DNA from: Streptomyces rapamycinicus NRRL 5491 | GTDB lineage: Bacteria > Actinomycetota > Actinomycetes > Streptomycetales > Streptomycetaceae | DNA: 64,000 nucleotides | Direction: 5' to 3' | NCBI RefSeq assembly: GCF_024298965.1 | Contig: NZ_CP085193.1 | Span: 5,332,001 to 5,396,000 of the forward strand | Part shown: positions 10,864 through 13,800 of the stretch, in pieces | How the letters are laid out: the number at the start of each line of letters is the position of its first letter | Position numbering within the stretch: the stretch's first letter is position 1 | Made by a program: the position numbers and the translations under genes | The notes under the pieces: model-generated | Told to the model about the DNA's origin: nothing | Seen by the model: the letters and a program-made list of their open reading frames with translations, nothing else | Databases searched by the model: none

Positions 10864-13800
10864 TCAGACCTCTTCGACGCTGGTCGGCTCGCGCCGGGAC
10901 AGGTCGATACCGAGCTCTTCCGCAGCGCGGAAGACGTCCTCGTCGGTGTCGCGCATCTCGATGGACATGCCGTCGGACGACAGCACCTCCACGTTGAGGC
11001 ACAGGGACTGCATCTCCTTGATGAGCACCTTGAAGGACTCGGGGATGCCGGGCTCGGGAATGTTCTCGCCCTTGACGATGGCCTCGTAGACCTTCACGCG
11101 GCCGGTCACGTCGTCGGACTTGATGGTCAGCAGCTCCTGGAGGGCGTACGCGGCGCCGTAAGCCTCCAGCGCCCACACCTCCATCTCGCCGAATCGCTGG
11201 CCACCGAACTGAGCCTTACCGCCCAGCGGCTGCTGGGTGATCATCGAGTACGGACCGGTGGACCGGGCGTGCAGCTTGTCGTCCACCAGGTGGTGCAGCT
11301 TGAGGATGTACATGTAGCCGACCGAGATCGGGTCCGGGAACGGCTCGCCGGAGCGGCCGTCGAACAGCCGGGCCTTGCCGGACGACTGGACCAGACGGTC
11401 GCCGTCGCGGTTCGGGATCGTCGAATCGAAGAGACCGGCGATCTCGTCCTCACGGGCGCCGTCGAAGACCGGGGTCGCGACGTTGGTACCGGGCTGGACC
11501 TCGTCCGCGCCGATCGCCTGCAGCCGCTGCATCCACTCCTCGGAGCCCTCGACCTTCCAGCCCCGGGAGGCCAGCCAGCCGAGGTGGATCTCCAGGACCT
11601 GTCCCGGGTTCATTCGGGACGGGACACCCAGCGGGTTGAGGATGATGTCGACCGGGGTGCCGTCCTCCAGGAACGGCATGTCCTCGACCGGGAGGATCTT
11701 GGAGATGACGCCCTTGTTGCCGTGGCGGCCGGCGAGCTTGTCACCGTCGGTGATCTTGCGCTTCTGCGCCACGTAGACGCGGACCAGCTGGTTCACGCCC
11801 GGCGGCAGCTCGTCGCCCTCCTCGCGGTCGAAGACGCGCACGCCGATGACCTTGCCGGTCTCACCGTGCGGCACCTTCAGCGAGGTGTCACGGACCTCAC
11901 GGGCCTTCTCACCGAAGATCGCCCGCAGCAGGCGCTCCTCCGGGGTCAGCTCGGTCTCACCCTTCGGGGTGACCTTGCCGCAGAGGATGTCGCCGTCGCG
12001 GACCTCGGCGCCGATGCGGATGATGCCGCGCTCGTCGAGGTCGGCCAGGACCTCCTCGGAGACGTTCGGGATGTCCCGGGTGATCTCCTCGGGGCCCAGC
12101 TTGGTGTCCCGGGCGTCGACCTCGTGCTCCTCGATGTGGATCGAGGAGAGGACGTCGTCCTGCACCAGACGCTGGCTGAGGATGATCGCGTCCTCGTAGT
12201 TGTGGCCCTCCCACGGCATGAACGCCACCAGGAGGTTCTTGCCGAGCGCCATCTCGCCGTCCTCGGTGGACGGGCCGTCGGCCAGCACCTGGCCGGCGAT
12301 CACCCGGGCGCCCTCGTCCACGACGACCTTCTGGTTGAAGGAGGTGCCCTGGTTGGAGCGGGAGAACTTGGCCACCCGGTAGGTGGTGTAGGTGCCGTCG
12401 TCGTTGGCCACCGTCACGTAGTCGGCGGAGACCTCCTGGACGACACCGTCCTTCTCGGCCTTGATGACGTCGCCGGCGTCGACCGCGCAGCGGTACTCCA
12501 TGCCGGTGCCGACCAGCGGGGACTCCGCCTTGATCAGCGGCACGGCCTGGCGCATCATGTTCGAGCCCATGAGCGCGCGGTTGGCGTCGTCGTGCTCCAG
12601 GAACGGGATCATCGCGGTCGCGACCGACACCATCTGGCGCGGCGAGACGTCCATGTAGTCGACGTCGTCGCCGGGGATGTAGTCGACCTCACCGCCACGG
12701 CGGCGGACCAGGACGCGGTTCTCGGCGAAGTGCAGATCGTCCGTCAGCGGCGCGTTGGCCTGCGCGATGACGAAGCGGTCCTCCTCGTCGGCCGTCAGGT
12801 AGTGCACCTCGTCGGTGACGACACCGTCGACCACCTTGCGGTACGGGGTCTCGATGAAACCGAACGCGTTGACCCGGCCGTACGAGGCGAGCGAGCCGAT
12901 CAGACCGATGTTCGGGCCTTCGGGCGTCTCGATCGGGCACATGCGGCCGTAGTGCGAGGGGTGCACGTCACGGACCTCGAAGCCCGCCCGCTCACGGGAG
13001 AGACCACCGGGGCCGAGCGCGTTCAGACGGCGCTTGTGGGTCAGGCCCGACAGCGGGTTCGTCTGGTCCATGAACTGCGACAGCTGGCTGGTGCCGAAGA
13101 ACTCCTTGATGGAGGCGACGACCGGCCGGATGTTGATCAGGGTCTGCGGCGTGATCGCCTCGACGTCCTGCGTGGTCATGCGCTCGCGGACGACACGCTC
13201 CATACGCGCCAGACCCGTGCGGACCTGGTTCTGGATCAGCTCGCCGACGTTACGGATGCGGCGGTTGCCGAAGTGGTCGATGTCGTCGGTCTCGACGACC
13301 ACGGCCTGGCCGTTGTCCCCGACGGTCTCGGTCTCACCGGCGTGCAGCTTCACCAGGTACTTGATCGAGGCGATGACGTCCTCGACCGTCAGGACGCCCG
13401 CGTCCAGCGGAGCGGCCGAACCCAGCTTCTTGTTGACCTTGTAGCGGCCGACCTTCGCGAGGTCGTAGCGCTTGGGGTTGAAGTAGAGGTTCTCCAGCAG
13501 CGTCTGCGCGGCCTCCCGCGTGGGGGGCTCGCCCGGGCGCAGCTTGCGGTAGATGTCGAGCAGCGCGTCGTCCTGGCCCTGGGTGTGGTCCTTCTCCAGG
13601 GTGGCGCGCATGGACTCGTACTCGCCGAACTCCTCGAGGATCTGCTCGGTGGTCCAGCCGAGCGCCTTCAGGAGGACGGTGACGGACTGCTTGCGCTTGC
13701 GGTCGATGCGGACACCGACCATGTCGCGCTTGTCGATCTCCATCTCCAGCCAGGCACCACGCGAGGGGATGACCTTGACCGAGAAGATGTCCTTGTCGGA

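Follow-up and report, generated by a model that had tools for sequence, protein, structure and literature searches.

The only rpoB gene found in Streptomyces rapamycinicus NRRL 5491 encodes Asn at residue 452, a site in the rifamycin pocket that corresponds to position 531 of the Escherichia coli protein, and this residue is probably an inherited target-site resistance to rifamycins that stands in for HelR, a protein that takes rifamycin off RNA polymerase. Within the genus, Asn531 and HelR come close to excluding each other, and this near-exclusion survives phylogenetic control. The second unusual residue of the region, Thr439 (by the same numbering, position 518), is a clade marker, while the biosynthetic gene cluster that adjoins rpoC is best treated as a separate feature. 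Positions 518 and 531 are given in E. coli numbering throughout.

The rpoB gene and its rifamycin region

The window – the whole stretch of DNA analysed, 64,000 nucleotides long – comes from a genome that forms one contig of 12,466,108 bases (12.47 Mb). Its rpoB (Table 1) lies on the minus strand, where the rifamycin region reads [29 protein letters not shown]; the Thr at 518 and the Asn at 531 that an earlier, sequence-only reading had picked out are both confirmed from this strand. That reading had also taken the gene for the housekeeping rpoB and had named a second rpoB as something to look for. As the whole-genome search gave one match to Rpb2_6 (PF00562) and one RpoB match, no second rpoB was found genome-wide, and the gene in the window is the housekeeping copy.

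Table 1. Features of the window and of the adjoining cluster (window coordinates, except where a locus is named)
Feature	Position	Strand	Remarks
NRPS C-A-PCP gene, 5' part (1098 aa)	1..1834	(-)	remainder left of window
Dieckmann cyclase (NcmC/AvmQ-like), 270 aa	1776..2588	(-)	PDB NcmC, E 3.2e-64, residues 1-269
Class A FAD monooxygenase	3318..4934	(-)	rif_monoox 415.1 bits, cut-off 800
Class A FAD monooxygenase adjoining rpoC	5130..6761	(+)	rif_monoox 429.9 bits, cut-off 800
rpoC	6864..10763	(-)	Arg598, Glu1017 and Ser1071 common to NRRL 5491 and G372 only, 18 RpoC aligned
rpoB	10864..14376	(-)	1170 aa; NCBIfam rpoB 1802.6 bits, cut-off 801.15; sole RNA polymerase beta gene found
RpoB Thr1165 codon	10882..10884	(-)	NRRL 5491 and G372 only; 2/205 genomes
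RpoB Cys799 codon	11980..11982	(-)	NRRL 5491 and G372 only; 2/205 genomes
RpoB Arg793 and Asp794 codons	11995..12000	(-)	NRRL 5491 and G372 only; 2/205 genomes each
RpoB Asn452 codon (E. coli 531)	13021..13023	(-)	rifamycin-pocket site; fewest changes on tree, 24
RpoB Thr439 codon (E. coli 518)	13060..13062	(-)	lineage marker; one change on tree
PKS-sized ORFs	L394 5667-19988; L395 12732-19982		classed by size alone

In the RNA polymerase of Mycobacterium smegmatis, the hydroxyl group of S447 (E. coli S531) forms a hydrogen bond with rifampicin (PMC6175910). Asn at this site of the housekeeping enzyme would weaken rifamycin binding, and NRRL 5491 is, to judge from the residue, probably intrinsically resistant to rifamycins. 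The earlier suggestion of intrinsic resistance is accordingly kept in part: its derivation from Asn at a rifampicin-contact site is likely to hold, and its derivation from the strain's own cluster is not upheld by the comparisons described below.

Distribution of the two residues

A codon pattern for Asn531 ([10 protein letters not shown]) occurs in 74 of the 392 genomes of the genus, NRRL 5491 counted in, and a slightly wider pattern in 21 of the 197 genomes of a class-wide draw. The rifamycin region itself was read in 205 genomes of the genus, namely every genome that matched the pattern (74), 75 of the 77 HelR-negative genomes outside the pattern (all but G210 and G387) and 56 of the 241 HelR-positive ones outside it. 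In this sample, which oversamples HelR-negative genomes, residue 531 is Asn in 82 genomes and Ser in 123, and residue 518 is Thr in 54 and Asn in 151. Such counts make Asn531 a common natural variant, and the earlier statement that nearly all actinobacterial RpoB proteins have QNNPLS and RRLSALG proved too strong at both sites. In G210, which lay outside the reading, rpoB is found as pieces on two contigs, possibly through an assembly fault.

Both residues extend beyond the genus. Among 30 relatives searched, with the loci read in 29, Thr518 is present in three of the 17 from the same genus (one of these three with Asn531 as well) and in all 12 from the same order, seven of which, all from one group, also have Asn531. 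A pattern scan of named genomes gave at least 119 stretches that are candidate rpoB sequences, and the matches listed include Streptomyces, Catenulispora, Actinomadura, Amycolatopsis, Janibacter, Mycobacterium celatum and many spirochaetes.

The history of the two residues was followed on a FastTree tree of the 205 genomes, built from rpoB together with the initial part of rpoC – genes that are themselves under study – with the codons round 531 removed. HelR changes 40 times on this tree, Asn531 at least 24 times and Thr518 once. The single change makes Thr518 a lineage marker, whereas Asn531 is recurrent. Thr518 was also weighed as a resistance change in its own right and rejected: besides its single origin, it is found in genomes of either HelR state and beside either residue, Ser or Asn, at 531.

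As for gene copy number, 18 of 19 Asn531 genomes checked have one RpoB match. The remaining one, G529, has three (C1:5552-9028, 7705018-7708494 and 7712978-7715617), which lie near both contig ends and possibly reflect an assembly overlap. A second, distant RpoB-like frame (1217 aa; 35–38% identity to parts of RpoB) was seen in G013 (C1:76240-77109), 76 kb from a contig end.

Near-exclusion of Asn531 and HelR

HelR was called from matches to NCBIfam NF041254 over 750 bits, the state of each genome being taken from the best E-value. The genus-wide search scored two candidates per genome, and the 15 genomes rescored with five candidates all kept their state. HelR is above the cut-off in 242 of the 392 genus genomes, the 150 without it agreeing with the tally; in NRRL 5491 no match passes the cut-off, the best reaching 433.8 bits against the 750 required. 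Sorted by the pattern, HelR is present in one of the 74 Asn531 genomes against 241 of the 318 others (Fisher p 1.4e-35, uncorrected for kinship), the sole genome with both being G199. Among the 205 genomes read, 81 have Asn without HelR and one has Asn with HelR, while 67 have Ser without HelR and 56 have Ser with it. Eight of the 82 Asn genomes carry RRLNSLG (Asn531 followed by Ser at 532), all of them missed by the pattern and none of them with HelR; as HelR-positive genomes outside the pattern were read in 56 cases out of 241, RRLNSLG could hide among the remaining 185.

The association holds when kinship is taken into account. A Pagel test of the dependent against the independent model gave a likelihood-ratio statistic of 43.3 (df 4, p 9e-9). 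In the estimated rates, Asn is gained at 10.3 without HelR and at 0.49 with it; HelR is gained at 65 on a Ser background and at 0 on Asn, and it is lost at 83 on Ser and at 0 on Asn, this last figure resting on one genome. Beyond the genus there is no more than a weak trend: in the class-wide draw, where HelR is above the cut-off in 65 of the 197 genomes, HelR occurs in two of 18 Asn531 genomes from other genera and in 51 of the 163 that do not match the pattern (p 0.10). The exceptions G526 and G538, like G199 within the genus, have one RpoB match each, that of G526 starting at a contig end.

What might lie behind this pattern? Class II HelD proteins displace rifampicin by means of a PCh loop that deforms the pocket and whose tip comes to within 3.5 Å of the rifampicin site (PMC10719064). 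We favour redundancy, in which Asn531 and HelR would be alternative protections of one target: Asn531 arises, with few exceptions, in lineages that lack HelR, and the two are very seldom found together. A structural antagonism, in which an Asn531 polymerase and HelR are incompatible because the PCh loop reaches into the rifamycin pocket, so that the pair is selected against, is the less likely reading. The loop geometry just cited speaks for it, as does the zero estimate for HelR gain on an Asn background, and so does the behaviour of a second resistance gene, Arr (called from NF033144 over 130 bits). Arr is above the cut-off in 32 of the 392 genus genomes, 17 of the 74 with Asn531 and 15 of the remaining 318 (p 5e-6, uncorrected for kinship), with no NF033144 match in the NRRL 5491 genome; Asn531 genomes are thus not free of other rifamycin defences, and of the two resistance genes tested HelR alone is depleted in them. 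This opposite trend keeps the antagonism alive. Against it, both features occur together in G199, G526 and G538, and the rate of HelR loss on Asn is likewise estimated at 0, from one genome. A contact between residue 531 and HelR is moreover hypothetical, and redundancy at one target predicts the same pattern.

That Asn531 is a nearly neutral polymorphism, its exclusion of HelR a by-product of shared ancestry, appears improbable. The seven nearest relatives of NRRL 5491 share the residue, so part of its distribution is inherited; but 24 Asn and 40 HelR changes are many for such an account, and the dependence holds in Pagel's test. In 60 parametric nulls simulated without dependence, the likelihood-ratio statistic reached at most 10.0. 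Independent pairs, of which 20 are supported, agree less strongly: on average HelR differs in the opposite direction in 8.4 of them and in the same direction in 0.3, with a median p of 0.008 and a range over pairings of 0.0005–0.22.

The near-exclusion seems new, no description of it having been recognised in the literature searched, which comprised titles, abstract openings and passages and took in few subscription papers. It allows redundancy and incompatibility of the two protections to be tested directly against each other. A likely resistance allele is, by the pattern, present in about one-fifth of the genus genomes sampled (74 of 392), and the target itself may therefore often be the seat of intrinsic rifamycin resistance in streptomycetes.

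The gene cluster between rpoC and rpsL

In NRRL 5491, rpoC and rpsL stand about 94 kb apart. Of 17 relatives, 11 have a gap downstream of rpoC of 336–442 bases and four a gap of 1.1–3.7 kb; the read of G162 ends before rpsL, and the apparent gap of 3.0 kb in G192 arises because its rpoC frame (L437) is broken, possibly by an assembly fault. The intervening cluster in NRRL 5491 spans positions 1-6863 of the window together with L370, L371, L393, L394, L395 and L412, and its far end is formed by genes recognised by their sequences as rpsL and rpsG, followed by fusA and tuf, which were identified by Pfam.

Besides the genes in Table 1, the cluster encodes a P450 and, among the proteins scanned, three modular PKS proteins. 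The protein closest to its cyclase among named ones, from S. hygroscopicus subsp. sporocinereus, is 94% identical. An NcmC/AvmQ-type Dieckmann cyclase, an NRPS of C-A-PCP composition and modular PKS are thus found together, as in clusters of the avm type, and by gene content and published description the likeness to the alchivemycin cluster is strong, with product and gene order only predicted. PF01041, the family of AHBA synthase, has 16 matches in the genome, the strong ones elsewhere. The stretch from rpoC to rpsL contains none of them; closest to it is a partial match of 29.6 bits at window 20637-20963, on the opposite side of rpoB. The AHBA sign of an ansamycin pathway is therefore lacking from the cluster.

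Both FAD monooxygenases resemble rifampin monooxygenase, far below its cut-off. As candidates for a true Rox they were rejected, with 415.1 and 429.9 bits against 800; the best NCBIfam match of each is PRK08244, under its cut-off of 644, and a comparison of one FAD monooxygenase with plasmids gave 937 records, all below 60% identity.

The sequence-only reading had linked Asn531 to this cluster, and the link did not survive comparison with other genomes. The cyclase was searched for in 80 genomes, NRRL 5491 included; 12 have a match, and identity exceeds 47% only in NRRL 5491 itself (100%) and in G372 (93%). In G372 the distance from rpoC is 4.4 kb to the cyclase and about 103 kb to rpsL, and over the 4.8 kb compared beyond rpoC the two genomes are 92–95% identical for most of the length; yet G372 has Ser531, and no HelR. 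Conversely, the seven nearest relatives read (DNA identity 97.3–98.7%) all have Asn531 and Thr518 and no HelR, and none gave a match to the cyclase; in six of them rpsL lies at most 384 bases from rpoC, the contig of the seventh being too short. Relatives that share both residues and have no match to the cyclase are the very outcome that the sequence-only reading had named as refuting it. With such relatives on one side and a carrier that has Ser531 on the other, Asn531 and the cluster occur independently of each other in this set of genomes. It is probably older than the cluster, which would be a separate and probably later arrival beside rpoC.

It is accordingly very hard to credit that Asn531 protects the strain against an RNA polymerase inhibitor of its own, produced by the adjoining cluster: the cluster does abut rpoC, and tirandamycin and streptolydigin, which inhibit RNA polymerase, are among the tetramates formed with such a cyclase (PMC5466765), but all seven nearest relatives keep the residue without a cyclase match, six of them with rpsL directly beyond rpoC, and G372, the only other carrier among the 80 genomes, lacks it.

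A different connection, unlikely but less remote, is that the cluster makes an inhibitor acting outside the rifamycin pocket, and that RpoB and RpoC residues peculiar to its carriers confer self-resistance, having come with the cluster or been selected by it. Four RpoB residues are confined to NRRL 5491 and G372 among the 205 genomes, and three RpoC residues (R598, E1017 and S1071) set the two apart from 16 others (Table 1). RpoB 793, 794 and 799 correspond roughly, by alignment offset, to E. coli 877–884, outside the rifamycin region. At 39 sites NRRL 5491 differs from six relatives that agree among themselves; 12 of these sites match G372 only and one matches G081 only, and changes are nonsynonymous at seven of the 12 G372-only sites as against five of 24 private ones. 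Five control genomes gave 0–2 G372-only sites, but a sixth, G369, gave 12 of 57, six of them nonsynonymous, which leaves the evidence for a transfer of rpoB and rpoC sequence mixed. Apart from the question of Asn531, the cluster between rpoC and rpsL thus offers a lead, open to test, towards an inhibitor of RNA polymerase.

Comparison with known systems

Amycolatopsis mediterranei has a resistant rpoB beside its rif cluster (PMC4551226), an adjacency of rpoB and cluster also seen in NRRL 5491; unlike there, the cluster here combines PKS, NRPS and a Dieckmann cyclase, and Asn531 does not depend on its presence. A producer of chaxamycin, an ansamycin, has an RpoB without resistance residues (PMC4551226). 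The cluster of NRRL 5491 resembles, by published description, the avm cluster for alchivemycin in Streptomyces sp. TP-A0867, which comprises a PKS–NRPS system, a Dieckmann cyclase and redox enzymes, and in whose listing four ribosomal proteins and two genes for RNA polymerase also appear (PMC9349299).

In Nonomuraea and Nocardia, the resistant β subunit of an actinomycete is the product of a second rpoB (PMC8655204, PMC10719064), whereas NRRL 5491 has one rpoB. One Nonomuraea strain is reported to combine its resistant second rpoB with a helD gene that carries a rifamycin-associated element (PMC8655204), a case that counts against the exclusion.

Closest to Asn531 itself are two natural instances of the same residue. 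In Mycobacterium branderi, S450N lies at the same site and may, according to the authors, confer resistance, although it is described in one species and they give target changes a minor role in mycobacteria (PMC13246000). In Treponema, N531 is reported to correlate with natural rifampin resistance (Stamm 2001, cited in PMC2576277), the Asn again standing at E. coli position 531 as it does in NRRL 5491. What distinguishes the present case from Treponema is that Asn531 recurs within one genus, where it is nearly exclusive with HelR.
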